DNA from: Lachnospiraceae bacterium
Lineage (GTDB): Bacteria; Bacillota_A; Clostridia; Lachnospirales; Lachnospiraceae
DNA length: 64,000 bases
Direction: 5' to 3'
Assembly (NCBI GenBank): GCA_024683935.1
Contig: JAIKXV010000025.1
Coordinates: 36,059-100,058 of the forward strand
The notes below the pieces were generated by a model. That model worked only from the letters and a program-made list of their open reading frames with translations. It was not told the DNA's origin and searched no databases. A program made the translations under genes and the position numbers. Of this stretch, positions 8,491 to 63,065 are shown one piece after another. Numbering within the stretch: the stretch's first letter is position 1; each line of letters starts with the position of its first letter.

Positions 8491-8568
8491 AAGATCCTTC
8501 GGTGACGCTCAGGATGACACAGGAGGAGATTCCTCTCATCTGTCATTCTGAGCGAAGCGAAGAATCTT
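8491..8568. repeat. Inverted pair of family-A interspersed repeats
   Basis: 8491-8518 is an inverted copy (its reverse complement reads GTCATCCTGAGCG, then GAAGGATCTT), and 8541-8568 is a direct copy (GTCATTCTGAGCG, then GAAGAATCTT). The pair faces each other and could form one long hairpin after the hydratase gene. Other copies: 19002-19028, 33888-33914, 45229-45255, 52451-52480, 55702-55729, 62978-63047. Confidence 0.8.
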
Positions 8569-8570
8569 AC

Positions 8571-33887: not shown

Positions 33888-33914
33888 GTCATTCTGAGCG
33901 GAGCGAAGGATCTT
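33888..33914 (+). repeat. Family-A interspersed repeat
   Basis: Reads GTCATTCTGAGCG, then GAGCGAAGGATCTT, 9 bases after the NlpC/P60 stop codon. Confidence 0.75.
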
Positions 33915-33938
33915 GTCGTAAAACGTGCGTAATTTGTC

Positions 33939-33980
33939 GCCGGATTCCTTGTGTATACAGGGGATCCGGTGTATTTTTTT
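33939..33980 (+). terminator. Intrinsic terminator after the NlpC/P60 gene
   Basis: GCCGGAT (33939-33945) pairs with ATCCGGT (33964-33970) around an imperfect inner stem, followed by TATTTTTTT. It separates the asnS/NlpC unit from the giant surface protein gene. Confidence 0.65.
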
Positions 33981-34028: not shown

Positions 34029-37000
34029 ATGAAGAAAAATTGGAAAAGCGGCTTAGCCGTACTGGTTCTCGCAGCACTTCTGCTTCAGTCGGGAGCCCAT
34101 GTGATCTCAAATGTCCTGGACTACGACAGGGACTATGCCATGGCCGATGACGACCTGGAGGAATACGAGAGCAATGATTCCGATGACAGCTCTGATGAGG
34201 AGTCTAATGAAGAAGACTCCGCAGAGGAGGAATCATATGATGACTCTGCTGATGAGGACTCTTACGAGGAAGAGTCTTTTGAAGAGAACTCTGACAGCAA
34301 TGAGAGCTCCGACGGGGGAGAGAGTTATGAAGAGTCCTTTGAAGGAAGCCGGGAGGAAGGCGGCGAAGCTATAGAAGAGAGCGAGCCGGCAGATCAGGGA
34401 GAAGAACCTGAAGAAGAACCGGCTGATGAAGCAACAGAAGAAAGTACGGAAGAAGCCACGGAGGAAGCCACGGAGGAAGCAACCCTCGCGGCATCTTTTG
34501 ATGTAAACCTCACAGTAAGCTATCAGGACGATAAAGGAAACAGCCTTAGAGATACAGAAGATCTGGATATTGAAGAGAATTCAGTCATCATCATGAAGAG
34601 CGCCGCTCCTTCCATAAGCGGTTACGAGTATGAGAACGCACTGCTTGAATTCACGGATCAGGACGGTGAAGACCAGAGAGGCACCATCCAGGCAGTACGT
34701 TACATATCTGAGGACGGGGAGAACGACGGATACGCATTCACGGTGAAATATGACGGCGAAGGAAGCGACTGGATCGCTATCACCGGAGACGGCAATATCA
34801 CCTTAAACTACAGCGCGATTGAAGAGGAAGAAGCTTCCACTGAGGCCGCCGAAGAGAGTTCGACCGAAAGCTCAACCGAAGAGGCAGAAACAGAAGAGGC
34901 CGGTGAGAGCAGTACAGAAGCTTCAACCGAAGCACCTGCTGAGGAGATCGGCAGTACCGAAGCTTCCACAGAAGCATCCACAGAGGAAGCCACAGAAACA
35001 GTAAGCGGAGATGAGGTATCAGGCGTGAAGCTTGATATCGAAGAAGAGCTGGTAAGCGGAAATGAGCTTGCGGCAGAAGAGAGCTCCACAGAAGAAGCTG
35101 TAAGCGACAATGAGGTGGTAAGCGGAGTGACCATCAGCGAAAACGCAGCTGAGGAAGGTGAAACGATCACCCTTCCCGTTGTAGACGTGGATGCATCTGT
35201 TGTGGATGAATTCGGCTATGAGATAGATCCGGAATTCACCCATATACCTCTTGATTTTGACGGATACCTTGCCCTTGACGATCCTGAGAATCCTCCTGTA
35301 AAGAAGGTCCGCAAGGCTTCGGGACAGGTCTTCTTTATCACAACCTATACCGACTATGAGTTCTCCAAGGCCACCCTTAACGGAGAAGTGATCAAGGGCC
35401 TGAAGAAGGAAGAGGCCGTACAGGCTCCCGGTGAAGAAGAGGATGAAGATAAGGGCTTCTTTGCAGCGCTGGTAGAGGCTGTAACAGGCGGCGGCGACAA
35501 GGATAAGGAATACTCTTACTCCTATACCACCGACGGTGAGAACTTCACGACCCTCGAGCAGGATGCAACTGTTACTCTTGAGTACAAGCTGGGTGAAAAC
35601 AACAGGACAAGCTATGTATATGAGGATGACAGCGTTATCGTTACTGCGCTGATACAGGATCCCAACGCTCTTCCCGACAATGCGGAGCTCAGAGTCATTC
35701 CCATAACCGGCGGCGAATTCGACTCTGCAATGAGCAGGATGAATGCATCCGGCAGCGGAGACGAAGAGGACAAGACAGTTTATGATGAGAGCAATACCCT
35801 GCTCTATGACATCAGCTTTGTAGTACCCGCAGACGAAGAGGGCGGAGCCGAGACCGAGGTTGAGCCCGCTGAAGGCGCTGTAAAGGTAACCTTTGAATTC
35901 AAAAATAATCAGTTAAGCCAGGGACTGGGGGCAACCGATGCGAAGAGCATCACCGTTACCCACTTCCCTGATGGTTCAGAAACCGTTGAAAAGATTTCCA
36001 CCGACTCAGCATCGGTATCAGGATCCGAGGAGGTGTCCTTTTCATCATCAAATTTTAGCAAATACGCCATCACTGCCGGTCAGGATGGCGGACTGAATAT
36101 CACATTAAGATTTGTGGACGAAAATGAATCAGGCGTTTCCGTAGATCTTGGAGACCAGAAGATACACGGATATATTGAGGGATCTGACGGTTCATTTGGC
36201 TATGTGGCTTTCCAGAAAAAGAATGATTCCGGAATGTATACCGCATCTGTCCGGAATCTTTACAGGAATGAAAACTGGCAGCTTAAACAGCAAAATATAA
36301 GGGATGATGTAAACTACACCGTTCAGATAGGGACAAGTAAGGCTGACAGCATAGGTAATCAGTGGTGGATGCCTGAATACAGTCAGAGCGGCATGCAGCC
36401 CTTTGTTAAAGGCACGCTCATCGGAAACAGCTGTTCCATTACAGAAGAAACAGATGAGATACCTTTATCGAAAGGCATTACCAATACTGTCTATGTCGTA
36501 GTAAATAACTTTGGCGGCCCCGGCAGTGATAACTATCAATCCATACTCGGAGAAGCGATCAATTTCGGCGTTGTGACCGGATCGCTGATCGGAGGCGAAG
36601 CCAGGACCAATTTTGCTACAGGTAATATCGAGTCCTTCGAGCATCAGATGGGAAATGACATAGTCAATTCTTCCAGGCAGACATTTATCATTCCCAGTAT
36701 TTCCGGCGGACAGCAGATACATATAAAGGGAGCGGATGCCATTGTATGGACTACAAAGGAGATCATAGAAGGATCGCAGAATCAGCCCAGGACAATCTGG
36801 CATGAAAAAGACGGTGACACGAATAATCCGATCCAGCATATAGTATTTCAGGAGTACACCGAGGATTATCTGAAAGGATTAGCGGGGAGGCTCCTGGATC
36901 AGGGGAAGAGCTCCTCGGCAGCACTGGCTTCCAGAAAAGACAACGCAGGTTTCAGTTTTTCAAATGACAATCCGCCTTTCTGTGACATTGATCTGACCGG

Positions 37001-40000
37001 AAGAGGTGCGGGCTGCTTCTATGTGACTATAGACGAAGATCTGTATTCGAAGATTATCGGAGGAGGATCCGGAAGCGGAAGGCTTCGTATTAAAAAGGAC
37101 GATGACCAGACGATTGTTTTTAATGTTACCAAGTCCGGTACCGCTGAATTATGCAAGTATGTAATAGCAAGGAACGGATCAAATAACTACAACGACTGTC
37201 AGAATTATACGGAACCGGGCGGAGATGTAGTTTCAAAAACTGTAGTATGGAATTTCATTAATGCAGATACCGTTGACGCTCATGAAACATCTGCTATAGT
37301 TCTTGCTCCGAATTCCAAGGTATTATCTACATCCGGCAAGTGCGGCGGATGGCTGATCGCAGGAAGTGCCAGGGTAAGCGGTGCAGCCTGGGTAAATAAT
37401 AACAGCAATCCCCAGCCGTATGAACCGGGCAATTACAACAATCCGACAGAGCCTGAAGGGACAAAGTACGGTTCTCTTACCGTACACAAGGTTGTTACAA
37501 GAATACCCGTAGGATTTGGATCGACGAGTTTACAGGACATTATCTACAAGGTTAAATTCAGGATAACCAGGGTGGATGTAACTCCTAATGAGGTTGTCGG
37601 TACTATTGACCGCAGCGATGCTTATTATGCGGGTAACAGTAATTATAAGCTGGATAATCTTCCCTATGGACAGTATAAGGTCGAGGAATTAGATGCTGAT
37701 TATCAGGACTATAAGTATGTGACCACCTACAATTACGGCGAGTTTAATGAAGGAACCGAATTATCAGAGAGCCCGATAGTTACGATCGGGGATGATGATC
37801 CGGATCCTATGATCACCGTTCACAACAAGTATTTCGGAAAGAAGAATGTAAGCGTAACAAAGGTATGGAAGGACAGTGAAGGAAATGCTCTTTCATCCCA
37901 CCCTGACTCCGTTCAGGTTAAGCTGAAGTCTTCCGAAAACAATGACATTGGTACAGTTACCCTTAATGACGGGAATAACTGGAGCCACACATGGGAGAGA
38001 CTTGAGGCTCTGACAACCGCAGGCGCTGATATAACATACAGCGTTGAAGAAGTTAATACACCCGGGTTCACAAGCGTGATCACCGGAAACGAGACAGACG
38101 GATTCGTGATCACAAATACGGTTCAGACCGGAAGCCTTAAAGTAACCAAGTCGGTAGTGGCTGACAGAGAAGAGGATAAGAATAAGGACGAATTTGACTT
38201 TACCGTAACCCTTACTGACAGCAAGGGCGGAAATGTATCCGGAACCTTTGGCGGAACTGTCTTTAGTAACGGCGTTGCTTCATTTAAGCTGAAGAATGGC
38301 CAGGAAAAGCTCATCAGCGGAATACCCGTGGGAACAGCCTACACCGTTACAGAGACGGCCAATGATGATTATATCGTTACCAAGAGCGGAGATACCGGAA
38401 CCATAAGTTCAGCTGAATCAACTGCCGCATTCACCAATACAAAGGATGAGGGCGGACTGACCGTTACAAAGACCGTTGAGAGCAGCGTGGCCGTTGACCA
38501 GAATATGGAATTCGGTTTCACCGTGAAACTCGATGATGCGGGCGTAAACGGTACCTATGGCGATATGAGCTTCACAAACGGCGAGGCAAATATCAAGCTG
38601 AAGAACGGCGAATCAAAGACCGCATCAGGACTTAAGAAGGGTACAGGCTATATGGTAACCGAGAACGGCGAAAAGAATGACAGGCTGGATATCGGTGACA
38701 TCACCTTTGACGTGGAGAAGAGCGGAACTGCCGGCACAATACCGGCATCGACAGAATCCGCGGCAGTAGCGGCCTTTACCAATAAGAGAACCAGCGGCAG
38801 CATTACGATAGCAAAGAATGTTGAAAGCGGAAGAACTGATGATATTAATGCCAAATATACCTTTGATATCAGCTTAAGCGAGGGAATCAGCTTAAGCGGC
38901 GAGAACTACAGCATCACAGCCGGAACCGGAACAGTAACCGTTCCCGCAAACTCTTCCGTAAAGATAGAGGGTATCCCCGCAGGAACCGAATACAGCATCA
39001 CTGAAGCAGCAGCCAGCAGTGAAGGTTTTGATGTAACGGTTCCCTCCAATGCAGAGGGCAAGGTCAGGGGTTCTGAGGATAAGGTGGTTACCTTTAAGAA
39101 CACCAGACAGACCGGGGCACTCAGCATTACGAAGTATGTTGAGTCTCCCATTCCTTCCGAGGCGGCAGCCGATTATACCTTTACCGTTGCCCTGAGTGAC
39201 ACCGGAATAAATCAGAATATCGGCGGAATCGACTTTACTGACGGATCAGCCACGATCACAGTCAGGGGAGGTGAAACAAAGACCATAACAGGACTTCCCG
39301 GCGGACTGGGTTACAGGGTTTCCGAAGCGGAAAATACAAGCTTTACCGTTGAAAGCACCGGCGCAGAAGGAACCATTGGTGCAGACACTTCAGAGGCAGT
39401 CTTTACCAACAGGAAGAAGACCGGCGAATTAAGCGTTACGAAGACTGTTGACAGCAGGACTACTGCAGACAAGAGCAGGGACTTCGAATTTAAGGTAATT
39501 CTCGGTGACAGCTCCATCGGAGGCGATGATGGAAAGGCATTCGGCGGAATGACCTTTAAGAACGGAACAGCAGCCTTCACGCTTCGGGATGGTCAGACGG
39601 TAACAGCCTCAGGACTTCCTGTGGGCGTAAGCTACAGGGTTGAGGAAACTCCCGATCCCGGCTTTGTTACTACAAAGACCGGAGATGAAGGAACCATAGG
39701 AACTGAAAGAGCCGAAGCATCATTCACCAATAAGAGGGATGACGGCGGCCTGGTTGTAGGCAAGAGTGTCGTAAGCAGTGTTGCTTCCGATAAGCAGATT
39801 GATTTCAGCTTCAGGGTAGAGCTTTCCGATACGACTATAAACGAGACCTATGGCGACATGAGCTTTACCGATGGCATTTCTGTATTCACCCTGAAGGACG
39901 GCGAAACAAAGTCGGCTGACGGGCTTCCGAACGGTATAGGATACACCGTGACCGAGGTCGGCGAGACAGAGGATCATAAGCTCACAACTGCTGAGGGAGT

Positions 40001-43000
40001 GACCTTTAAGGTTGAGAAAACCGGCGTGACCGGAACCATTGATAAAGACCATGCCGGAAAGGCAGAGTTCACGAATAGAAGAGAGACCGGAGAGATCCGT
40101 ATAACCAAGACGGTGGAAAGCCCCGTTCTTGCTGATCTGGAAAAGGTATATTCCTTTGAGATAGCTCTTAATGATAATACGGTGAACGGAACCTTTGGCG
40201 GCGTGATCTTTGACGGCGGCAAGGCCACAGTAACTCTTACAGGTGAAACAGGCAGCAATGAGAAGATCATAACAGGTCTTCCCGCCGGAGCAGAGTTTAA
40301 GGTAACCGAGGCTGAGGATCAGAACTTCATTACAAAGTCCGGCGAAACAGAGACTCATTCTACAGCGTTCACGCCTGTGGATGCCTCGGTAAGGAAGCTC
40401 GCAGCCTTTACCAACATCAGAAAGACCGGAGAACTTGTGATCAATAAGAGTGTAACCGGAACCACGGATGAGGCGGAGCTTAACGGAACATACGAATTTA
40501 CCGTTGATCTGGATAACGACAGTATAAACGGCGAAGTTGGCGGAGTTATCTATTATAACGGTACCGCAGATATCAGCATTCCTGTTGTAAACGGTCAGGG
40601 TTCAAAGACGATAACGGGACTTCCTCTCGGAACCGGATATACGATTACCGAGAAAAAGGGAGAGAACTTTAACTTTGACGTAAAAATAAACGGAACTGTT
40701 AAGGACAAGGCAGAGGGAAGCATAACCGCAGCTTCTTCGGAAAGCTTTGAAAATGCGAGACAGACCGGAAGCCTCAGTCTGAAAAAGACCGTTGACAGCC
40801 CGTCCGATACGGATAAGAACGACAGGGAATATACCTTTAAGGCAGTCTTTGATAAGGCCTTAAACGGCGAGTATGACGTGACCGATGAAAAGGGTGCGGT
40901 GTCCAGGCTCTCAATAAGCGGAACCGAGCAGACCTTCAAGCTTAAGAATGGCGGAATGGTTACTATTGACGGTCTGCCTAAGGGTCTGGGATACACGGTA
41001 AGCGAGGTCATGACAGACGCCGAGAAGAATGATTTCCTGACTACTGTCACAGGAGGCGACAGAAATACAGAAACCAGCGCAGCCGGCAGCATTGACGGCA
41101 ATAATGATGCGGTAGAATTTAATAATATCAGATCAAAGGGCGCTCTTATCATTCATAAGACCGTGGAAAGTGATCTGGATAAGAACAATAAATACAGCTT
41201 CACGATCACCCTTGACGACAAGAGCGTGAACGGCGAATACAGCGGTATCAGGTTCACGAACGGAGTGGGCCGGGCTGTTCTGGGCGACGGTGATACACTG
41301 AAGATAGAAGGACTTCCCGACGGAACCGGCTTCAAGGTGGAAGAAGAAAATACCGGGAACATGACTCCTGTTTACCGTGAGGGAACAGTGGGAGTTCTTG
41401 ACAGCAGCAGCCGTATGGTAAGCTTCGATAATACAAGAAATAAGGGCAGTCTCACCATTGCCAAAGAACTGGTAAGCGATGTGGATGCAGACGGCGATCA
41501 GAGCTTTACCTTTGATATCGTGCTGAAGGACAGCAGAGTTGACGGGGACAGCAGCAAGTACGGCGGAACGGCCTTTGATAAGGGCAGGGCTTACGTTACC
41601 CTTAAGGGCGGAGAGAGCACTACGATAGAAAACCTGCCCCAGGGTGTTGAGTACGAGATCACGGAGCGTAATCCCGGAAACCTGAAGCTTACGGGAATAA
41701 CTGTAGATGGTGCGAAGTCCTCGGTTATTAACGGCAAGGGATCCGCAAAGGGTGTGATCAAAGCCGAGAACTCTGTGGCATTTGAGAACAGCCGCGGAAC
41801 CGGGGAAATGGAGATCGTAAAGACCCTGGTAAGTGACGCAGCCGGAGATCAGGATCAGGAATTCACCTTTAACCTTACTCTGAGCGAAACGATCACAAAG
41901 GAATACAGCGGAGTTCAGTTCACAGGCGGAACTGCGGTAGTTAAGCTTAAGGGCGGACAGTCAAAGCTCATACAGGGTCTGCCTGAGGGTATCTCCTGCA
42001 CCGTGAAGGAAGTTGGTGCCGACGGTTATTCCACAACCGCTGACGGTAAGAACTCTGACAGCGTGACTCTTAATATCGGCTCCGATAAGGCTGTGGCTGA
42101 ATTCGTAAATACCAGAGACACAGCAGACCTCGTGGTTGAAAAGAAGGTTCAGAGCAGCACAGCTGCAGATCATACAAAGGACTTCAACTTCACCGTTACC
42201 CTTGGAGATACTTCTATAGGCGGTTCTGAAGGAAAGACCTATGGCGGAATGACCTTTAAGGGAGGCGTTGCAAGATTCACACTGAAGGACGGAGAAAAGA
42301 AGACCGCAACAGGCCTGCCTATAGGAGTGGATTACACCGTTACGGAGACAGAGGCCGATAAGAACGGCTTTAGAACAGAGCCTGTGGGTAACAGCGGAAC
42401 CATAAAGACAGGAGAAAACAAAGCCGTCTTCACCAATATCAGGAATGAGGGCGAAAGCCTTACGGTTATAAAGGAAGTTCTTAACGGAACAAACGACGAC
42501 CTTGATAAGAAGTTCAAGATCAGGATCGACCTTGCCGGAGATACGGAGATCACAGGAACCTATGGTGATATCACCTTTAATTCCGGCGCTGCCGAGCTTG
42601 AACTTAGGAATGGTGAAAGCAGGACAGCACAGAAGCTTCCGAAGGGCATCACCTATACAGTAAATGAGACTCTTTCCGAAAGTGACGGAAAGCTCTATAA
42701 CGTTACATATGACGGCGAGAGCGGAACAATAGGAGACACGGCGCTTACTGCAAAGGTTACAAATGACAGAAAGACCGGCGGAGATCTTGAGATCAGCAAG
42801 ACGGTCGTAAACGGAACTGCTTCCGATGCTGACAGGTACTTTACATTCAATATAGTTCTTAATGAGAATGTGAACGGAACATACACAGCAGCGGGATACG
42901 GAGATGTGACCTTCACAAACGGAAATGCAGCAGTATTCCTTAAGGCCGGAGAAAAGGCCGTAATAAAGGGTCTTCCTTACGGAGTGACCTACAGGGTTAC

Positions 43001-45134
43001 CGAGACCGATGATCCGAGCGGCTATCTCGCAGCAAACTACAACACGAGTGTGAACGGCACAGCCGGATATGAGACTTCGGGCACCATAGGCGAAGGCTTA
43101 TCGGCAGCGGTCTTCAGTAATGAGCGTAAGAGCGGCGGACTGAAGGTAACAAAGACCGTCCGCAGCGAATTTGAAGGAGACTTAAGCAACAGGTTTGACT
43201 TTGAGGTGAAGCTGGATGATGCTTCTATCGATGGCGACTTCGGCGAGATGAAGTTCAATAAGGGTGTCGCAGAGTTCAGACTTTCGAGCGGACAGTCCCT
43301 GACAGCTTCAGGACTTCCTAAGGGAGTTGGCTACACCGTTACGGAAACAGCAGCGGAGTACAGCGGAAAGACCTATTCCGTAAGCTACAAAAATAATAAG
43401 AACAGCGGAACTATCACGGAAAATGTGACATCCGAGGTGGAGGTCATCAATACCCCCAATGCAGGAATAGAGATACCTGTACAGAAGATCTACAAGGTCA
43501 ACGGTGCGGAGGCTCCTCTTCCCGCATCCGGCTTTACCTTCAGCCTGAAGGATGAGGATACCGGAAAGACTCAGCAGATCACCCTTCATGAGAAGACAGG
43601 AACATTTACACTCAAGTTCAGCGACAATGAGATCGGAGCCCATAATTATCTTCTTTATGAGGAGTACGGCGGGGATACCAATGTTCAGTACAGCAAGGCG
43701 GCCTACAGGATATCTGTCAATGTTACAAAGGATAATGAGGGAAGGCTCGGTGCATCAGGTAATATCGAAAGCCTGAAGAACAGGGAAGATGAGAATACCG
43801 AGAAGGTTAATAAGACACTCTTTAAGTCTATCGTGCAGTTCTTTACCGGAACGCCTTTGAAGATCGATACCTGTGCATTCACCAACTACGGAAATGAGAT
43901 CCGTCTGGTGAAGGTGGACAAGGTGAGCGGAGAAGAGGTTGACGGTGCAGCATTGGCAGTGACCGGACCTGACGGAAAGGAGCAGAGGTATGTTACACCT
44001 GCAACCCTCAACGAGGGTCTCGCTCCCGGAAAGTACACGGTTAAAGAGTATGCGGCGCCTTACGGTTACAAGAAAGCAGAACCTTCGGATACCGACTTCT
44101 TCACTGTGGCAGATGACGGAACCATCACGGTAAATAAGGGAGAGAATATCTCCTACAACAATAATAACGGAACCATTAATATCGCCTATGCCAATAAACC
44201 GTACTTCGGAGAAATGGAATTCAGGAAGCTGAAGGTTTATAAGGAAGGCGGAGAATGGCTGAAGGCTCCGTTCGAGGGAGTGACCTTCGACCTCTATATC
44301 TATGGTAAGCCCCAGACCGGAGCACAGCTCGCTGCATCCGGTGTAGTGAACGGCAACTGGTACAAGAAGGGCAGCTACACCACGGATAAGGACGGTTATG
44401 TAAAGATTGATAATCTGATCTGGGCAGACTATGCTATAGTGGAAACTGCCAACGGAGATGACAATTACGTCTTTGATCCCCAGAAAGCATATTACTTCAG
44501 GATCAACGAAGGAAATCTCGTAGACAGGACCTACTATAACAAACCGATAGAAAACTACAGGAAGGTTGACCCTGCGGTTCAGCCCGGAACGAACAGTTCC
44601 AGCAGCTCAAGTACTACCAGCAGTTCCAGCAGCTCCGGCGGTTCAGGCAGCACTACCAGCAGTTCCAGCAGCTCCGGCGGTTCGGGCAGCACCACCAGCA
44701 GCTCCAGCAGCTCTGGCAGTTCGGGAACCACAGGCGGAACAGGAGGAAGCTCAGCAGACAGCGGCGCGGCCGGCACAGGTGCTGAAGGCTCCGGTCTGAC
44801 AGAAGGAGCAGCAGCGGACAGCGGCATAGTTTATGTTGAGACGCCGGATGGCATAATGGGAATCTCTCTGGCTCCAGCACCTGAGACAGGTATAATGGGT
44901 ATTAAGCTTGATGATGACGTCCTGGGAGTACGTATCGGACCCGACGGCGCAGTGCTGGGCGTAAGAACAGGCCCCGGATCTGAGGTTCTGGGTGACAGAC
45001 TGGCACCCGCCAACGGAGAAGGCGTGAACCTGATCTTCTGGATACTGATCCTCGCGGCATCGGCTCTTGTGGCAGGAAAGATCATCTATGATGATAAGAA
45101 GCGCCGCAAGGCAGCAGTAGAAGAAATGAAGTGA
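34029..45134 (+). CDS. Giant repeat-built cell-surface protein (3701 residues)
   Basis: Predicted adhesin. Order of parts: signal peptide (1-37); Asp/Glu/Ser/Thr-rich acidic region (38-390) with VSGDEVSG and VSDNEVVSG words; beta-rich region (390-830); a choice-of-anchor A-like domain (about 834-1130, GEAINFGVVTGSLIGGEARTNFA-type opening); a SpaA/Cna-B-like pair (1145-1365); sixteen tandem repeats of about 111 residues (1367-3140), each starting like GSLKVTKSV and ending like AxFTN; a pilin-like Spy0128 domain (3140-3280); SpaA-type domains (3285-3510); Ser/Gly/Thr linker; VLG repeats; a membrane helix (about 3668-3686) and a basic tail. No LPxTG is seen; VLGDRLAPANGEG stands in its place. 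GAGG 6 bases before the ATG. No sortase gene is adjacent. Confidence 0.85.
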   Translation: MKKNWKSGLAVLVLAALLLQSGAHVISNVLDYDRDYAMADDDLEEYESNDSDDSSDEESNEEDSAEEESYDDSADEDSYEEESFEENSDSNESSDGGESYEESFEGSREEGGEAIEESEPADQGEEPEEEPADEATEESTEEATEEATEEATLAASFDVNLTVSYQDDKGNSLRDTEDLDIEENSVIIMKSAAPSISGYEYENALLEFTDQDGEDQRGTIQAVRYISEDGENDGYAFTVKYDGEGSDWIAITGDGNITLNYSAIEEEEASTEAAEESSTESSTEEAETEEAGESSTEASTEAPAEEIGSTEASTEASTEEATETVSGDEVSGVKLDIEEELVSGNELAAEESSTEEAVSDNEVVSGVTISENAAEEGETITLPVVDVDASVVDEFGYEIDPEFTHIPLDFDGYLALDDPENPPVKKVRKASGQVFFITTYTDYEFSKATLNGEVIKGLKKEEAVQAPGEEEDEDKGFFAALVEAVTGGGDKDKEYSYSYTTDGENFTTLEQDATVTLEYKLGENNRTSYVYEDDSVIVTALIQDPNALPDNAELRVIPITGGEFDSAMSRMNASGSGDEEDKTVYDESNTLLYDISFVVPADEEGGAETEVEPAEGAVKVTFEFKNNQLSQGLGATDAKSITVTHFPDGSETVEKISTDSASVSGSEEVSFSSSNFSKYAITAGQDGGLNITLRFVDENESGVSVDLGDQKIHGYIEGSDGSFGYVAFQKKNDSGMYTASVRNLYRNENWQLKQQNIRDDVNYTVQIGTSKADSIGNQWWMPEYSQSGMQPFVKGTLIGNSCSITEETDEIPLSKGITNTVYVVVNNFGGPGSDNYQSILGEAINFGVVTGSLIGGEARTNFATGNIESFEHQMGNDIVNSSRQTFIIPSISGGQQIHIKGADAIVWTTKEIIEGSQNQPRTIWHEKDGDTNNPIQHIVFQEYTEDYLKGLAGRLLDQGKSSSAALASRKDNAGFSFSNDNPPFCDIDLTGRGAGCFYVTIDEDLYSKIIGGGSGSGRLRIKKDDDQTIVFNVTKSGTAELCKYVIARNGSNNYNDCQNYTEPGGDVVSKTVVWNFINADTVDAHETSAIVLAPNSKVLSTSGKCGGWLIAGSARVSGAAWVNNNSNPQPYEPGNYNNPTEPEGTKYGSLTVHKVVTRIPVGFGSTSLQDIIYKVKFRITRVDVTPNEVVGTIDRSDAYYAGNSNYKLDNLPYGQYKVEELDADYQDYKYVTTYNYGEFNEGTELSESPIVTIGDDDPDPMITVHNKYFGKKNVSVTKVWKDSEGNALSSHPDSVQVKLKSSENNDIGTVTLNDGNNWSHTWERLEALTTAGADITYSVEEVNTPGFTSVITGNETDGFVITNTVQTGSLKVTKSVVADREEDKNKDEFDFTVTLTDSKGGNVSGTFGGTVFSNGVASFKLKNGQEKLISGIPVGTAYTVTETANDDYIVTKSGDTGTISSAESTAAFTNTKDEGGLTVTKTVESSVAVDQNMEFGFTVKLDDAGVNGTYGDMSFTNGEANIKLKNGESKTASGLKKGTGYMVTENGEKNDRLDIGDITFDVEKSGTAGTIPASTESAAVAAFTNKRTSGSITIAKNVESGRTDDINAKYTFDISLSEGISLSGENYSITAGTGTVTVPANSSVKIEGIPAGTEYSITEAAASSEGFDVTVPSNAEGKVRGSEDKVVTFKNTRQTGALSITKYVESPIPSEAAADYTFTVALSDTGINQNIGGIDFTDGSATITVRGGETKTITGLPGGLGYRVSEAENTSFTVESTGAEGTIGADTSEAVFTNRKKTGELSVTKTVDSRTTADKSRDFEFKVILGDSSIGGDDGKAFGGMTFKNGTAAFTLRDGQTVTASGLPVGVSYRVEETPDPGFVTTKTGDEGTIGTERAEASFTNKRDDGGLVVGKSVVSSVASDKQIDFSFRVELSDTTINETYGDMSFTDGISVFTLKDGETKSADGLPNGIGYTVTEVGETEDHKLTTAEGVTFKVEKTGVTGTIDKDHAGKAEFTNRRETGEIRITKTVESPVLADLEKVYSFEIALNDNTVNGTFGGVIFDGGKATVTLTGETGSNEKIITGLPAGAEFKVTEAEDQNFITKSGETETHSTAFTPVDASVRKLAAFTNIRKTGELVINKSVTGTTDEAELNGTYEFTVDLDNDSINGEVGGVIYYNGTADISIPVVNGQGSKTITGLPLGTGYTITEKKGENFNFDVKINGTVKDKAEGSITAASSESFENARQTGSLSLKKTVDSPSDTDKNDREYTFKAVFDKALNGEYDVTDEKGAVSRLSISGTEQTFKLKNGGMVTIDGLPKGLGYTVSEVMTDAEKNDFLTTVTGGDRNTETSAAGSIDGNNDAVEFNNIRSKGALIIHKTVESDLDKNNKYSFTITLDDKSVNGEYSGIRFTNGVGRAVLGDGDTLKIEGLPDGTGFKVEEENTGNMTPVYREGTVGVLDSSSRMVSFDNTRNKGSLTIAKELVSDVDADGDQSFTFDIVLKDSRVDGDSSKYGGTAFDKGRAYVTLKGGESTTIENLPQGVEYEITERNPGNLKLTGITVDGAKSSVINGKGSAKGVIKAENSVAFENSRGTGEMEIVKTLVSDAAGDQDQEFTFNLTLSETITKEYSGVQFTGGTAVVKLKGGQSKLIQGLPEGISCTVKEVGADGYSTTADGKNSDSVTLNIGSDKAVAEFVNTRDTADLVVEKKVQSSTAADHTKDFNFTVTLGDTSIGGSEGKTYGGMTFKGGVARFTLKDGEKKTATGLPIGVDYTVTETEADKNGFRTEPVGNSGTIKTGENKAVFTNIRNEGESLTVIKEVLNGTNDDLDKKFKIRIDLAGDTEITGTYGDITFNSGAAELELRNGESRTAQKLPKGITYTVNETLSESDGKLYNVTYDGESGTIGDTALTAKVTNDRKTGGDLEISKTVVNGTASDADRYFTFNIVLNENVNGTYTAAGYGDVTFTNGNAAVFLKAGEKAVIKGLPYGVTYRVTETDDPSGYLAANYNTSVNGTAGYETSGTIGEGLSAAVFSNERKSGGLKVTKTVRSEFEGDLSNRFDFEVKLDDASIDGDFGEMKFNKGVAEFRLSSGQSLTASGLPKGVGYTVTETAAEYSGKTYSVSYKNNKNSGTITENVTSEVEVINTPNAGIEIPVQKIYKVNGAEAPLPASGFTFSLKDEDTGKTQQITLHEKTGTFTLKFSDNEIGAHNYLLYEEYGGDTNVQYSKAAYRISVNVTKDNEGRLGASGNIESLKNREDENTEKVNKTLFKSIVQFFTGTPLKIDTCAFTNYGNEIRLVKVDKVSGEEVDGAALAVTGPDGKEQRYVTPATLNEGLAPGKYTVKEYAAPYGYKKAEPSDTDFFTVADDGTITVNKGENISYNNNNGTINIAYANKPYFGEMEFRKLKVYKEGGEWLKAPFEGVTFDLYIYGKPQTGAQLAASGVVNGNWYKKGSYTTDKDGYVKIDNLIWADYAIVETANGDDNYVFDPQKAYYFRINEGNLVDRTYYNKPIENYRKVDPAVQPGTNSSSSSSTTSSSSSSGGSGSTTSSSSSSGGSGSTTSSSSSSGSSGTTGGTGGSSADSGAAGTGAEGSGLTEGAAADSGIVYVETPDGIMGISLAPAPETGIMGIKLDDDVLGVRIGPDGAVLGVRTGPGSEVLGDRLAPANGEGVNLIFWILILAASALVAGKIIYDDKKRRKAAVEEMK
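38130..43452 (+). repeat. Sixteen tandem protein-coding repeats, about 333 bases each
   Basis: Units begin near 38130, 38450, 38795, 39113, 39421, 39745, 40090, 40429, 40768, 41140, 41443, 41803, 42125, 42450, 42780 and 43137. Each encodes a G-[SEGA]-L-x-[VI]-x-K-x-V start, F-x-[FV]-x-[LV] strands, a short G-x-Y-G-x-[MI]-x-F turn, [KR]-x-G-[EQ]-[ST] then G-L-P-x-G-x-x-[YF]-x-V-[TS]-E, and an FTN/FEN end. Units are clearly related but not identical in DNA, so the expansion is not recent. Confidence 0.85.
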
Positions 45135-45159
45135 TCACAACGAAATAAATGATTAGAGA

Positions 45160-45196
45160 TCAGCCGGGAGCGAAACCCGGCTGATTTTCTTTTTTC
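45160..45196 (+). terminator. Intrinsic terminator of the giant surface gene
   Basis: A perfect 10-base-pair stem (ATCAGCCGGG 45160-45169, complement 45177-45186) with a 7-base loop and then TTTCTTTTTT. Confidence 0.93.
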
Positions 45197-45228: not shown

Positions 45229-45255
45229 CCATTCTTGGCGAAGCGAAGAATCTTA
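45229..45255 (+). repeat. Family-A interspersed repeat
   Basis: Reads GCCATTCTTGGCG, then AAGCGAAGAATCTT, between the surface protein terminator and glgX. Confidence 0.65.
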
Positions 45256-45326
45256 TTGATTTACACGGGGAATATAAAATGATATTCTGAAAAAAGCTGA
45301 AAAGTATAAGAAAGGGGATTCAGTAT

Positions 45327-50327: not shown

Positions 50328-51938
50328 ATGAGAAAAATTATACATACACTTGTCATTATGACATTCCTCTCTCTCATATCCGCCATTCCTGTGGCTGCGG
50401 CCGACGGGACTCTGATAAAAGAAGGGGTTTATGCCGGGAAGGTGGATCTCTCCGGTATGACGGAGAGCGAAGCGATGAGCGCGGTGGATTCATATATAAA
50501 GGATCTCGACAACGCGGAGCTGATCCTTAACTGTGTAAGCGGGAATACCGTAGCGGTAAAGCCTGCTGATTTTTCAGTTTCCTGGGGCAACAGGGAGATA
50601 GTGGCCGACGCCGTATCTCTTGGCAGATCCGGCAATGTCATCAGGCGGTTCAAGGATCTTTCCGACCTGAAAAAGCACAAAAAGGTATATGACATCGAGC
50701 TTGCGATGGATGATGAAGCACTGAAACAGGTGCTTACGGAGAAGTGCGCGGCATATAACACCAATCCCAAAAATGCGGAGCTGATCCCCGGAGAGGGCGG
50801 AAACTTCACTATCATTGAAGGAGAGGAAGGAGCAGCGGTCAATGTGGATGCTTCCCTCGAAGTGGTGGAAAACTATATAGCAAATGATCTTACGGCAGAG
50901 GGCGGCGCCGTGGATCTGGTGATAGAAACGGTAAAACCAAAAGGAGATACCGAGACCCTTTCCAAGATAAAGGATAAGCTCGGCAGCTTCACCACAAAGT
51001 ATGAGACCAGCGGTGCTGACAGAAGTGCAAACATCGCTACCGGCTGCAAGCATATAAACGGAACCCTGCTCTATCCCGGAGAACAGTTCTCGGTATATGA
51101 GCACGTGAGTCCCTTTACCGAGGAGAACGGATATCACCTTGCAGGATCCTATCTGAACGGTCTCGTGGTTGAGTCCCTCGGAGGCGGTATCTGTCAGGTG
51201 TCTACCACCCTTTATCAGGCGGTGCTCCGGGCCGAGCTTCAGGTGGACGAGAGAAGCAACCACTCCATGGTCGTGGATTATGTGCCCCATGGCGGGGATG
51301 CGGCCATAGCGGGAACGGCCAAGGATTTTAAGTTTACTAATAATACGGAGTATCCGATCTATATAGCGGGACAGACCGGCGGAAAGGCGATTACCTTCAC
51401 TCTCTACGGAGTAGAGACAAGGGATATGTCAAGGAGGAGCCTGGATTTTGAGAGTGTTGAACTGTCAAAAGAGGAGCCGGGGGCCGATCAGGTTGTGGGA
51501 GATCCTGAGTCTCCTGCAGGATCTGTGCATACCCAGTCTGCCCATACAGGATACCGCTGTGAATTCTGGAAGATCATAAAGGAAGACGGCGTAGAGAAAG
51601 ACCGTGTGAAGATCAGCACCAGCACCTACAAGGCGGTTCCGAAGATCATTACAATAGGAACGGCAACCGACAATGAGGTGACGAAGGCTGCGCTGAATAA
51701 TGCCATTGCTACCCAGAACCCGGATTATGCCAAGGCTGTGGCGGCGTCCGTGGCCCTTGACGGAGGAGCAGGTGCGCTGGCGGAGCAGCAGATGGGTGCG
51801 GCGGCTGCGGCAGCGGAAGCGCAGCAGGCAGAAAACGCCGGTGAAGGCGGCGCGGAGCCTGAGGCTCAGCCCCAGCAGGAACAGCATGAGGAGCATCAGG
51901 AGTACCGTGCAGAAGATGAAGAAGAGCCGGACGGCTGA
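50328..51938 (+). CDS. VanW family exported protein
   Basis: A 536-residue secreted or envelope protein. Signal peptide 1-25 (ends VAAA), two peptidoglycan-binding-4-like regions (residues 30-200), then the VanW domain (about 210-360) with NGTLLYPGEQFSVYEHVSPF and the conserved GGGICQVSTTLYQAVLRA and ERSNHSMVVDYVPHGGDAAI. The C-terminal 80 residues are low-complexity (Ala, Gln, Glu, His). VanW proteins are named from vancomycin clusters but most, as here, are not linked to resistance; the function is unknown. AAGGA about 7 bases before the ATG. The 3' end overlaps the next gene by 23 bases. Confidence 0.85.
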   Translation: MRKIIHTLVIMTFLSLISAIPVAAADGTLIKEGVYAGKVDLSGMTESEAMSAVDSYIKDLDNAELILNCVSGNTVAVKPADFSVSWGNREIVADAVSLGRSGNVIRRFKDLSDLKKHKKVYDIELAMDDEALKQVLTEKCAAYNTNPKNAELIPGEGGNFTIIEGEEGAAVNVDASLEVVENYIANDLTAEGGAVDLVIETVKPKGDTETLSKIKDKLGSFTTKYETSGADRSANIATGCKHINGTLLYPGEQFSVYEHVSPFTEENGYHLAGSYLNGLVVESLGGGICQVSTTLYQAVLRAELQVDERSNHSMVVDYVPHGGDAAIAGTAKDFKFTNNTEYPIYIAGQTGGKAITFTLYGVETRDMSRRSLDFESVELSKEEPGADQVVGDPESPAGSVHTQSAHTGYRCEFWKIIKEDGVEKDRVKISTSTYKAVPKIITIGTATDNEVTKAALNNAIATQNPDYAKAVAASVALDGGAGALAEQQMGAAAAAAEAQQAENAGEGGAEPEAQPQQEQHEEHQEYRAEDEEEPDG

Positions 51939-57296: not shown

Positions 57297-59006
57297 ATGC
57301 CGCTTTTGAGCGCTCTTTATGTTGGAGCATCAGGTTTACAGACGAGCCAGAATGCGCTCAACACAACAGCACACAACCTTGCAAACATTGATACCACAGG
57401 CTACACGAGGCAGCAGGTATTACAGGGAAACAGGGAACTCATTAAGATAGGTGAGTCCTATAATAACACCCTGCAGTCCGGACTCGGAGTGGCTTATACT
57501 GATGTCCGTGCAGTGAGGGATGAATTCCTCGACAGGCAGTACAGGACAGAATCAGGCAGATCAGCCTATTATTCCACCAGTTATGAAGTAGTTTCGGAGA
57601 TCAACACTCTTTTTGGAGAGACAGAAGGAACCGAGTTCCAGACTTCCCTTCAGAATCTTCGTGATGCACTGGAGAACCTGTCAAAGTCTCCGGCGGACGC
57701 TACGGTACAGGCAGCACTTGTCAGCACCGCATCCCAGTTCCTTGACAGGGCTAACGCAGTATATACCGACCTGCAGACCTATCAGGAAAACCTGAATCAG
57801 CAGATCAAGGACCAGGTCGACAAGATAAATGAATATGCAAAACAGATCGCAGATCTCAATGTAAAGATCACCGCGTATGAGGTATCCGGGATAGAGAGCC
57901 CGAATGACCTCCGCGACGCCAGGGATCAGATACTGGACGAGCTCTCAGCATACGGACGTATCGATTACAGGGAAGATCTGTACGGCAGGGTAAAGGTATT
58001 CTTCGAGGGAGTGACCCTGGTGGATGAAGATGATACCAACCCTATGGCAGCCGCGGTTCTTCCCGGTGATGAAGACAGCGGATATGTTACTCCCGCATGG
58101 GAGAGATACGATAACCAGAAGGTTTTCAACCTTACCCAGCCTGTGAATGCGGATATCGGATCAGACAGCGGATCCCTGAAGGCTCTGTATTTCACCAGAG
58201 GTTATAAGAGCGGAACCTGGAATGATCTGGAAAAGAGTAATTATCCGGATCCTGAATTTGCAGATAAGCAGAAAACCGGAGAAATTGGTTTTGAGGCCTA
58301 CGATGAAGCAGGAAAGGTTTCCTTTGTGGGACCTGCGGGCTTCAATATTTCAGAAGTTCAGGCTGAGTTTGACAACCTTATCCACAATATCGTAACCAGG
58401 ATAAATGACATCCTGACAGATAATCATACAAATGGTTCACCGGAGCTGTTTACCAGGATAACAACCCACAATTCTCCCACTAAGACGGACAATGCGATTG
58501 CTACTACATCCGCCGATATTGAGGCGCTGGAGCTCACAAAGGATGCGGAAGGTGTAAATTACGAAAAGGCGACCTACACCACTCCGAACCTGATGATCAA
58601 CAAGGATCTTCTCCGTCAGCCCACACTTCTGAGCGATGTAGGATATGGCGGCTTTGTTAAGAGTGACCAGACAGTGGATTACGAGAAGGCAAAAGAGCTT
58701 GCAGACCTCTTTACCACGGAAAAGGACAATCTTAATCCGAATACGGTCACTCAGTTCAGTTACGAGAACTACTATATAAACATAGTGAATCAGTACGCAA
58801 ACTACGGCAATACCTACAGAAGCGTTTCTCTGGGCCAGGAAGCCTCGGTTCTAAGCATCGACAATTCCAGACAGCAGGTGGTGGGTGTTTCAGATAATGA
58901 AGAACTGACAAAGATGATCAGATTCCAGAACGCATACAACGCCAGCAGCCGTTACATCAATACCGTGAACAGCATGCTGGATACACTGATCACTTCACTG
59001 ATCTAA
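57297..59006 (+). CDS. flgK: Flagellar hook-associated protein FlgK, copy 1
   Basis: First junction protein between hook and filament. 569 residues with the D0/D1 helices at both ends: GASGLQTSQNALNTTAHNLANIDTTGYTRQQ at the N-terminus (key words HNLANIDTTGYTRQ) and MIRFQNAYNASSRYINTVNSMLDTL at the C-terminus. Length is near E. coli FlgK (547). A second, more diverged FlgK follows. Confidence 0.93.
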   Translation: MPLLSALYVGASGLQTSQNALNTTAHNLANIDTTGYTRQQVLQGNRELIKIGESYNNTLQSGLGVAYTDVRAVRDEFLDRQYRTESGRSAYYSTSYEVVSEINTLFGETEGTEFQTSLQNLRDALENLSKSPADATVQAALVSTASQFLDRANAVYTDLQTYQENLNQQIKDQVDKINEYAKQIADLNVKITAYEVSGIESPNDLRDARDQILDELSAYGRIDYREDLYGRVKVFFEGVTLVDEDDTNPMAAAVLPGDEDSGYVTPAWERYDNQKVFNLTQPVNADIGSDSGSLKALYFTRGYKSGTWNDLEKSNYPDPEFADKQKTGEIGFEAYDEAGKVSFVGPAGFNISEVQAEFDNLIHNIVTRINDILTDNHTNGSPELFTRITTHNSPTKTDNAIATTSADIEALELTKDAEGVNYEKATYTTPNLMINKDLLRQPTLLSDVGYGGFVKSDQTVDYEKAKELADLFTTEKDNLNPNTVTQFSYENYYINIVNQYANYGNTYRSVSLGQEASVLSIDNSRQQVVGVSDNEELTKMIRFQNAYNASSRYINTVNSMLDTLITSLI

Positions 59007-59016
59007 ATTCATGAGA

Positions 59017-59133
59017 AATAGCCTTCCCCTTGAGGGTAGGGCATCACGAAGCAACAATAGCCTTCCCCCTGAGGGTAGGGCATCACGAAGCAACAATAGC
59101 CTTCCCCTCTGGGGAAGGGGGACCGCGAAGCGG
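59017..59133 (+). repeat. Family-B repeats: two 39-base tandem units plus a third diverged unit
   Basis: Units 59017-59055 and 59056-59094 start AATAGCCTTCCCC and differ by one base (T or C after CCCC). The third unit, from 59095, carries an intact hairpin CCTTCCCC/GGGGAAGG, then ACCGCGAAGCGGT and the tail GGATGAGG. They fill the gap between the two flgK genes. The flgK2 ribosome binding site (CAGGAGGT) follows separately. Confidence 0.85.
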
Positions 59134-59171
59134 TGGATGAGGCATCGGCATCACCGCCCAGGAGGTAATAC

Positions 59172-61157
59172 ATGGGTACATCTCAATTTTTCGGGCTGAT
59201 GATCGGATACTCCGGTCTGACAGCATACCAGGTAGCAGAAAATACAGTGGCCAATAACGTGGCCAACGTGGAGACCGAAGGCTATTCCAGACAGTACGCC
59301 GAGAGGAAGGCTTCAGATGCCCTTCGTACCTATACCAGCTACGGCATGCAGGGTACCGGTGTTACGGTAAAGAGCATAGACCAGTACAGAAACGAATTTC
59401 TGGATAATAAGTACTGGGCGAATCAGTCTGATGTAGGTCGTTATGAGACTCACGAAGCCCATATGATCAGAATAGAGAAATACTTTGAGGACAGCAGCAC
59501 CGTCAACGGTTTCTCTACTATTTACGATAAATTCAATGCGGCTCTTGAAGAGCTTGCTAAAAACCCCGGACAGACATCTACCAGAACATCATTTATCGGA
59601 ACAGCCCAGACGCTTTCCGAGTATTTCAGGACCATGTCCTCCAATCTGAAGGCAGAGCAGCAGTCTATCAATGAAGAAATCAAGACAACGGTTGAGAGGA
59701 TCAATGTCATTGCGGAAGAGATAGCTGCCTTAAATAAGCAGATAAACCTAATAGAACTCCGTGGCTCAAAAGCCAATGAACTCAGGGATAAGAGAGCCAT
59801 TCTTGTGGATGAACTATCAAAGATCGTGGACGTGGAAGTTTCCGAGGTTCCGGTTTTGAATGAAGCGGACAAGAATAATCCTACCGGAGCAAACCGCTAC
59901 ACTGTAAAGATCAGTAACGGTAATACTCTGGTAAGTAATTATGATTACAATACCCTGGAGCTTATCGGAAGGGATGAAAATGCAAAGTATAACCAGTCGG
60001 ATGTGGACGGTCTCTATGACATACGCTGGAAAGAGACCATGTCACCCTTTAATGTGCTGGCGGATAACCTTTCGGGGAGCTTAAAATCCCTTATCGAGCT
60101 CCGTGACGGCAACAATACAGAGAATCTTAAAGGACAGAAATCTGCAGATTATCCAAACGACGGTTTTGTGAGTTTTGATGAAACGGTGATCCCTAATGCG
60201 GATCCGACCAAAACGATCAATAATACACTTACGTTCAAGACCAGTACAATAATAGCCGATAATCTGGAGGAAGCTATATCAAAGCTCAATATACCTGAAC
60301 AGGGAACCATCAATGTAGGCGGTACGAGTTATACATATTCTAACTGGAAGGTAAGCGGAGCGAAAAATGCTTCAACCGGAGCATATGAGCTGACATTTGA
60401 GTTCTATAATATTTACAATGACGCCGGAACATACGGACTGAAGAGCACTCCCGATACAGGAGCAAGGGTTCAGATAGGATCATCTGTTGATTATCAGGGT
60501 ATTCCCTACTATCAGAGCCAGCTGAACCAGTGGACCCGCCAGTTTGCATACAGGTTTAATGAAAGGGAAAAGAAGGGGGAAGATCTTCTGGGGGATAAAA
60601 TGAGTCTTTCTTTCTTCCAGTGGAAGGAAAAGGACGGAGATCTCCGGAGTCTCTATGAATATGATTTTTCCACAAGCACCGCAGCGAGTTTCAGTACGAT
60701 TGACTATGATCCGACCAGTACTGCTGAGACAAACTATTATTATCTTACAGCCGAGAATTTCTATGTGAATAATGATATCATCAAGGATCCCCGGCTGATG
60801 AGCACTACCGCGAAGGATGGTGACGTGGACACGGATGCATCGGATGTCGTGGATGAGCTTATAAAGATAAAGGATAATAAGTCGGTCATGGAGTTCAGGG
60901 GATGTACCTCCGGAGAGTTCCTGACCTGTATACTTTCCGATATTTCATTAAATTCCATGAGTGCCAAGACATTTAAGACCAACAGCAATAACATCAGGGC
61001 ATCCATTCAGAATCAGAGGGATTCTGTTTCATCCGTGGATGATGATGAAGAGGCAATGGATCTTGTTAAGTTCCAGAACGCCTATAACCTGAACGCCAAG
61101 GTCATCCAGACGATGACAGAGATATATGACAGGCTGATACTCCAGACAGGAGTATGA
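59172..61157 (+). CDS. flgK: Flagellar hook-associated protein FlgK, copy 2
   Basis: 661 residues, about 90 longer than copy 1. The N-terminus (YQVAENTVANNVANVETEGYSRQYAERKA; key words NNVANVETEGYSRQ) and the C-terminus (LVKFQNAYNLNAKVIQTMTEIYDRL) are the FlgK D0/D1 helices; the middle is expanded and unlike copy 1. AGGAGGT lies 6 bases before the ATG. May form a mixed junction with copy 1 or serve a second filament type. Confidence 0.88.
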   Translation: MGTSQFFGLMIGYSGLTAYQVAENTVANNVANVETEGYSRQYAERKASDALRTYTSYGMQGTGVTVKSIDQYRNEFLDNKYWANQSDVGRYETHEAHMIRIEKYFEDSSTVNGFSTIYDKFNAALEELAKNPGQTSTRTSFIGTAQTLSEYFRTMSSNLKAEQQSINEEIKTTVERINVIAEEIAALNKQINLIELRGSKANELRDKRAILVDELSKIVDVEVSEVPVLNEADKNNPTGANRYTVKISNGNTLVSNYDYNTLELIGRDENAKYNQSDVDGLYDIRWKETMSPFNVLADNLSGSLKSLIELRDGNNTENLKGQKSADYPNDGFVSFDETVIPNADPTKTINNTLTFKTSTIIADNLEEAISKLNIPEQGTINVGGTSYTYSNWKVSGAKNASTGAYELTFEFYNIYNDAGTYGLKSTPDTGARVQIGSSVDYQGIPYYQSQLNQWTRQFAYRFNEREKKGEDLLGDKMSLSFFQWKEKDGDLRSLYEYDFSTSTAASFSTIDYDPTSTAETNYYYLTAENFYVNNDIIKDPRLMSTTAKDGDVDTDASDVVDELIKIKDNKSVMEFRGCTSGEFLTCILSDISLNSMSAKTFKTNSNNIRASIQNQRDSVSSVDDDEEAMDLVKFQNAYNLNAKVIQTMTEIYDRLILQTGV

Positions 61158-61178
61158 TAGAAGACGGATCGGGAAAAG

Positions 61179-61200
61179 TGGCGCTAAGCGCCGGATGAGG
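61179..61200 (+). repeat. Family-B repeat, 3' half
   Basis: GGCGCTAAGCGCC hairpin followed by GGATGAGG (61193-61200), which is 8 bases before the flgL1 ATG and serves as its ribosome binding site. Confidence 0.7.
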
Positions 61201-61208
61201 TGTAATAT

Positions 61209-62977: not shown

Positions 62978-63047
62978 GATTCTTCGGGATCTGCCCCCGG
63001 AATGACATGATTGGTTTGTTGTCATTCTGAGCAAAGCGAAGAATCTT
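62978..63047. repeat. Inverted pair of family-A repeats between the two flgL genes
   Basis: 62978-63006 is an inverted copy (GATTCTTCGGGATC, then CCGGAATGAC) and 63021-63047 a direct copy (GTCATTCTGAGCAAAG, then CGAAGAATCTT), the same face-to-face arrangement as at 8491-8568. Confidence 0.75.
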
Positions 63048-63065
63048 TATTTCAGGAGGTAAGGT

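Follow-up and report, generated by a model that had tools for sequence, protein, structure and literature searches.

A giant single-gene surface protein of a Lachnospiraceae bacterium with a 16-unit stalk and a choice-of-anchor A head

Domain layout of the giant protein

A 64,000-nucleotide stretch of contig JAIKXV010000025.1 from a Lachnospiraceae bacterium (64 kb, hereafter the window) carries on its forward strand a gene at 34029-45134 that reads as one intact open reading frame (ORF) of 3701 residues, free of the frame break that the initial annotation of this DNA had named as speaking against it. The gene encodes a single-gene surface protein of well-formed and already known architecture, in which a choice-of-anchor A head precedes a long array of DUF7601/DUF5979 units and a hydrophobic C-terminal helix (Table 1). 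We regard it as probably a single-chain fibrillar adhesin, whose isopeptide-locked rod would present a head that binds an insoluble polymer. By its architecture alone, the protein combines the long chain, adhesive domain and stalk domains by which fibrillar adhesins are recognized (PMC8286594).

Across the whole protein, Pfam matched DUF7601 (16 stretches), DUF5979 (15 stretches), SpaA (three stretches), Cna_B and FctA. The SpaA region near the C-terminus, where Pfam gives three stretches (best 3290-3369), was divided into two domains by motif positions, and motif positions also point to a candidate triad (K1154, E1219 or E1220, N1266) in the SpaA/CnaB-like domain behind the head. The signal peptide and the C-terminal helix were called by reading the sequence only. 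Stretches resembling the N-terminal module precede the head in two large proteins (P0002, P0043) and in genome G009, as judged by eye from the alignment, while the small domain at residues 691-829 aligned clearly in only one of eight aligned rows, that of genome G001. The acidic Ser/Glu segment had been taken for a stalk; since it is N-terminal, with C-terminal anchoring it would instead lie beyond the head.

Table 1 Features of the giant gene and its flanks (window positions).
Feature	Positions	Strand	Evidence
Terminator-like hairpin, upstream	33938-33971	+	15 pairs; hairpin scan
Signal peptide, residues about 1-28	34029-34112	+	sequence MKKNWKSGLAVLVLAALLLQSG; kept in G001 orthologue
Acidic Ser/Glu/Thr low-complexity segment	34113-34493	+	sequence; Tandem Repeats Finder (TRF) rows at 34428-34483
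N-terminal module before head, about residues 380-690	35166-36098	+	alignment by eye
Small domain between N-terminal module and head, residues about 691-829	36099-36515	+	alignment
Choice-of-anchor A head, residues 830-1125	36516-37403	+	TIGR04215 match, model, structure comparison
SpaA/CnaB-like domain, residues about 1149-1268	37473-37832	+	weak SpaA match, E 0.2
Cna_B domain, Pfam 1274-1364	37833-38126	+	Pfam
16 DUF7601/DUF5979 units, residues 1368-3145	38130-43463	+	Pfam, unit hidden Markov model (HMM), triad motifs
FctA (Spy0128-like) domain, Pfam 3152-3252	43464-43889	+	Pfam
SpaA prealbumin-like domains, read as two	43890-44564	+	Pfam and motif positions
Ser/Gly/Thr linker with 39-base repeat	44583-44813	+	sequence, TRF
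VLGxR repeats and diverged sorting signal APANGE (residues 3659-3664)	44826-45023	+	sequence, comparison of C-termini
Hydrophobic C-terminal helix and basic tail	45027-45131	+	sequence
Terminator-like hairpin, downstream	45156-45188	+	13 pairs; hairpin scan

The stalk and its isopeptide triads

The stalk was readily delimited. DUF7601 (PF24547) matched in 16 stretches with 707 bits against a Pfam cut-off of 27, and an HMM trained on eight of the units tiled residues 1368-3145 with 16 units spaced 0-1 residue apart; once re-trained, the HMM gave one further, very weak row (a 17th, 2.8 bits) inside the SpaA-like domain preceding the array. The units are 102-124 residues long and share 22-54% pairwise identity (median 35%), in line with the 16 diverged tandem domains first proposed. 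K, G, E and N columns are invariant in all 16 units, and the K, E and N columns correspond to the CnaB-type isopeptide triad: by order and spacing, compared with Table 1 of PMC12617251, every unit has its Lys, Glu and Asn where the family has them. A wider alignment started from 704 units, and after removal of 60 that matched in fewer than 90 columns and of 49 identical copies it retained 579 besides the 16 of the window. Two units modelled together gave beta domains of CnaB-type fold (predicted local distance difference test, pLDDT, 97.1) that match the pilins PitA and Spy0128 in structure comparison. The expectation of repeated beta domains in an isopeptide-type stalk was thus borne out by the model and the triads, and Lys-Asn isopeptide bonds would be expected to form within the units.

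A layer of the Spy0128 pilin measures 5 nm. With 3.8-5 nm per layer, a rod of about 21 domains would span about 80-105 nm, plus flexible ends. Since three stacked CnaB-type layers of RrgB extend about 115 Å (PMC3132780), which puts the rod within this range, the fibre of some hundreds of nanometres suggested by the initial annotation is too long.

Comparison of repeat number across relatives, as initially proposed, did reveal a difference, and it lies at the head end. The orthologues closest to the window protein are those of G001 (split over two contigs) and G005 (ending at a contig end), and no closer one was found. In the G005 orthologue the array counts at least 24 units, compared with 16 in the window. 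Its units 13-24 find their best matches in window units 5-16, in the same order (12/12), whereas its units 1-12 match window units 5, 2, 4, 4, 1, 5, 4, 13, 1, 2, 4 and 4; likewise, the final four units in G001 correspond to window units 13-16 (4/4). The rod thus seems to be fixed on its cell side and to vary in length at the head end, a pattern drawn from one long comparison (G005) and one short one (G001). Expansion of repeats at the DNA level, of the Periscope type, was considered and ruled out: TRF finds no DNA array of units, and its five rows fall in the Ser/Gly linker and in N-terminal sequence of low complexity.

Matches to DUF7601 were found in 38 of 145 genomes related to G001 (35 above cut-off) and choice-of-anchor A matches in 19 (14 above cut-off), compared with none in 14 controls in either case. 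In the same 145 genomes, the profile of the head (A2) matched in 14 and a C-terminal query in 28. In a set of large proteins, 50 of 53 carry 2-37 units by the window HMM and two bear PF20597 according to precomputed Pfam assignments.

C-terminus, sortases and surroundings of the gene

As the initial annotation stated, LPxTG is absent before the C-terminal helix, and the protein ends LAPANGEGVNLIFWILIL. That account missed what stands in its place: to judge from its relatives, the C-terminus holds a sorting signal that has diverged, APANGE in the window where (S/P)PXTG-type substrates have PxTG. Related C-termini have [SAG]PxTGD followed by a helix in all 14 distinct sequences from 13 genomes (the two orthologues and 12 others), as collected from fetched loci with a pattern that required VLG, P and G, allowed T, N or S at the Thr place and left signals lacking the G uncounted. 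A search by the C-terminal 666 residues retrieved three proteins, with no orthologue among them. At the T/N place the codon is AAC in the window and ACA in both orthologues; because the D/E place differs as well, APANGE is not most simply explained by one miscalled base, although the motif is known from a single copy and may contain a sequence error.

The altered motif would also fit a decaying copy that has lost its anchoring and is shed or held in the membrane. Clostridioides difficile SrtB does not recognize LPXTG but cleaves between the Thr and the Gly of (S/P)PXTG, and in a computed model its Arg217 contacts the Thr hydroxyl (PMC5118464), so that loss of the Thr kept in all 14 relatives points in this direction. 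Against decay, the 3701-codon frame is intact, all 16 triads are retained, and among 42 codons around the signal and helix, 12 differ from G001 synonymously and seven with a change of amino acid. Moreover, a different exported protein of 1266 residues in G005 (L100:1613-5413), whose signal lacks the G and so falls outside the 14, ends VLGDRMAP...VLGDRLAPVADF and has VLGDR repeats, helix and basic tail with no TG, which suggests that TG loss may be tolerated; the C-terminus of P0002 likewise lacks PxTG. We therefore judge decay distinctly unlikely and retain the adhesin reading, in which the window copy could be wall-bound, membrane-held or shed.

No sortase was found in the window among frames of at least 50 residues (best E 0.59, filters off), and no pilin domain in 30 other ORFs scanned, which are part of those present. 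The claim that the gene has no neighbouring sortase or pilin gene accordingly stands, within that scope, for the window and does not extend to its relatives. Sortase genes were present in 9/10 and 11/11 related genomes searched (three genomes being common to both sets), and in AC3007 (G009) and G026 the gene immediately upstream of the giant codes for a sortase, which in G025 is found one gene further away. The sortases of G026 and G025 share 83% and 84% identity with that of AC3007, and the giants of both genomes carry related heads. In G005 a sortase is encoded elsewhere in the genome (40% identity to the AC3007 enzyme), and a sortase piece at a contig end in G001 shows 48% identity over 163 residues. 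Two consecutive giant frames (5394 and 4453 residues) follow one sortase in G026 (L144, G026:C79:45000-64800), and genes with DUF4956 and VTC domains adjoin the sortase and giant of AC3007 (L098:16524-17997). These three linked sortases, together with the pilin-type character of the FctA, SpaA, Cna_B and DUF7601 domains, might indicate that the giant is a subunit of a sortase-polymerized pilus. We consider this very improbable, for one chain already makes the whole rod and the window offers neither sortase nor, in the ORFs scanned, a partner pilin; a single-chain adhesin remains the favoured reading.

The giant gene lies between genes for a class II tRNA synthetase and an NlpC/P60 hydrolase on its 5' side and an isoamylase-like enzyme on its 3' side. 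Of all terminator-like hairpins in the region, the two longest lie on either side of it, so that a stand-alone transcription unit is plausible, as initially proposed; with 16 sites in the scan as a whole compared with 10.7 (sd 3.6) in shuffles, this is weak pattern evidence. An Rfam scan of the window gave nothing at gathering scores. Allowing 2 mismatches, a 27-base element (CATTCTGAGCGNAGCGAAGNATCTTNT) occurs at 8544-8570, 33890-33916, 45230-45256 and 63023-63049, all four copies lying on the forward strand outside the main frames and two of them bracketing the giant gene; it was absent from 100 shuffles, and because the pattern was derived from the two flanking copies, only the other two are independent finds.

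The isoamylase-like neighbour shares 85-88% identity with loci L001-L005 and L050 (best 80 of 571 loci compared), all from Lachnospiraceae metagenome-assembled genomes (MAGs). By their titles, L002 comes from goat rumen and L005 from roe deer rumen, and L001, L003 and L050 have RUG names, which we take to denote the rumen. Since most of these relatives are rumen-labelled Lachnospiraceae, the host is probably a Lachnospiraceae bacterium of the rumen. The isoamylase gene faces the 3' end of the giant in G001 (L001, 10001-15199), whereas in the window and L005 both genes run in the same direction, a difference due to inversion or misassembly. Elsewhere in the window, two consecutive FlgK-like genes and a flagellin-like gene (57297-62807) suggest a probably flagellated host with a duplicated hook-associated protein, and a frame with VanW, peptidoglycan-binding and G5 domains (50328-51938) likely encodes a second cell-wall-facing protein.

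The head, its possible ligand and known systems

Given alone, the head matched TIGR04215 (choice_anch_A) with 39.2 bits against an NCBIfam cut-off of 29, over about residues 956-1121 and profile positions 105-248 of 255, confirming its initial assignment; with the whole protein as query, TIGR04215 was unlisted at E up to 0.1. No Pfam model names the head at E up to 10, including PF20597, which is presumably the choice-of-anchor A family; P0036, named choice-of-anchor A by its source, bears PF20597. A head query against genome contigs returned no relative, and none of 2020 candidates scored in a head-region search over giant proteins (2035-6476 residues) reached E 1e-3. The head being too diverged for direct searches, its relatives were found by HMM instead, and P0002, P0003, P0011 and P0015 combine units with a related head.

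The modelled head (A2; mean pLDDT 66.5, 105 of 458 residues below 50, six-sequence alignment) appears to be a beta-solenoid resembling the fold of DUF3494 ice-binding proteins (best Foldseek E 1.3e-3). That fold is an irregular beta-solenoid with a side helix. In a structure alignment covering Foldseek-ranked chains only, identity to LeIBP (3uyu) and 24 other DUF3494 entries was 8-17%. At E up to 10, the head matched no ice-binding Pfam family, and the A2 head profile matched no ice-binding chain among structure chains. We take an ice-binding-protein-like beta-solenoid as a lead for the fold, one that offers the choice-of-anchor A family a structural hypothesis of polymer-surface binding.

In 60-residue windows, identity is 29-48% in the head and 54-82% in the N-terminal module, and the head diverges much faster than the parts on either side of it. 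Because so fast-diverging a head adjoins a conserved module, selection on the head is suggested. Replacement of the window head from another protein is not favoured, since the window and G001 heads are sisters (93/93, below the tool mark of 95) in a tree with eight of 14 inner branches open and rows of at most 180 aligned columns dropped. The divergence also bears on whether the protein is a cell-to-cell or biofilm spacer, with length as its function and the head as a passive cap. Related heads do sit on quite different stalks, P0002 having 37 DUF7601 units, P0003 at least 26 and AC3007 an FctA array, as a spacer would allow; against a passive cap stands the selection on the head that its divergence suggests, and we find a spacer role improbable.

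The adhesin reading then takes the following form. The protein would be exported via its signal peptide, and its C-terminal end, with the diverged sorting signal, the hydrophobic helix and the basic tail, would hold it at the cell. About 21 prealbumin/CnaB-like domains would form a rod, in which the 16 DUF7601 units would each be locked by a self-formed Lys-Asn isopeptide bond, and this rod would carry the head and N-terminal module roughly 0.1 µm outward, and the predicted solenoid would bind an insoluble polymer, most likely a plant cell-wall polysaccharide. Arrays of choice-of-anchor A domains occur in taxa that we take to be anaerobic gut fungi. Because choice-of-anchor A lectins (Jonah) of Acanthamoeba bind cellulose (PMC6541295) and the host appears to come from the rumen, plant fibre is the leading candidate ligand, although cellulose or a similar polysaccharide remains a tentative assignment, and natural glycopolymers are hard to identify according to the same paper. 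A fuller scenario is less likely still: in the rumen, the solenoid may hold on to crystalline plant polysaccharide with its flat face, and of the roughly 20 self-locked domains in the rod below it the twelve cell-side units would be fixed while units are gained or lost beside the fast-evolving head, the motif having shifted from PxTG to PxNG in this lineage.

The head might alternatively bind a host component (collagen, mucin or epithelium), the stalk lifting it past the bacterial surface layer. A Bacillus protein in which a collagen-binding domain adjoins a choice-of-anchor A domain (PMC6541295) allows such a ligand, and many stalked surface proteins reviewed in PMC9704523 bind host ligands. 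The giant protein itself contains no collagen-binding Pfam domain, and plant fibre is the abundant solid of the rumen, if the host lives there; a host ligand is in our view unlikely.

Besides this Bacillus neighbour, several observations weigh against the polymer-binding adhesin. The plant ligand is drawn from a eukaryotic relative that is distant and from a model that is uncertain, given the pLDDT and Foldseek values above, and no sequence link leads from the head to any ice-binding protein. A fast-changing tip also fits immune or phage pressure, and the missing Thr makes wall attachment of the window copy doubtful. Furthermore, the gene is patchy: with head or C-terminus queries, among the six closest genomes (L001-L005, L050) it was seen in G001 and G005 only, although these are fragmented MAGs and the others may lack the gene or be incomplete.

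Uncommon features of the protein are the predicted ice-binding-like fold of its head, the fast change of the head, the altered sorting motif and the head-end difference in rod length. For feed digestion, it matters in practice how rumen bacteria attach to plant fibre. Because the one large isopeptide survey found (PMC12617251) was limited to AlphaFold DB entries no longer than 1280 residues, giants of this kind fall outside it, and descriptions of chains with 16-37 predicted isopeptide locks are scarce.

Among known systems, the pilins Spy0128, PitA and Cpa (3b2m, 7w6b, 4bug) share the domain fold and Lys-Glu-Asn triad with the window units (the Glu of unit 12 aligns with that of 4bug, Lys and Asn falling outside the local alignment); they are few-domain pilus subunits or tip proteins, whereas the window protein is a 16-unit rod in a single chain. 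The Jonah lectins likewise carry the choice-of-anchor A domain on wall-binding proteins, but they are eukaryotic, have no such stalk or bacterial anchor, and are the proteins for which cellulose binding was shown (PMC6541295). DUF3494 ice-binding proteins have no sequence match to the head, and ice is not an expected ligand for a gut bacterium.

Closer counterparts are found among bacterial giants. P0036 and P0039, which bear PF20597 and are labelled as choice-of-anchor A with DUF7601/DUF5979 and SpaA, have 8 and 10 detectable units and end in PTTGD and APETGD, keeping the Thr-Gly that the window lacks; their heads were missed by the window-head profiles and the window head has no Pfam match, so that the equivalence of the heads rests on the name. 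The giant of AC3007 (L098:1695-15434, 4579 residues) has a related head and a VLGxR/SPVTGD C-terminus, while its stalk consists of 13 FctA stretches, with no unit by the window HMM and one weak DUF7601 match. Periscope proteins have the same plan of N-terminal head, repeat stalk of variable repeat number and C-terminal anchor, yet their repeats are highly identical in DNA (PMC9704523), unlike the diverged window units. Giants with a related head and more units than the window protein are already in databases: P0002 (5906 residues, ending without PxTG) and P0003 (4104 residues, cut off at its C-terminus, Atopobiaceae by source) have heads related by HMM (E 1.6e-15 and 3.7e-23) and 26-27% identical to that of the window, followed by DUF7601 arrays longer than its 16 units.
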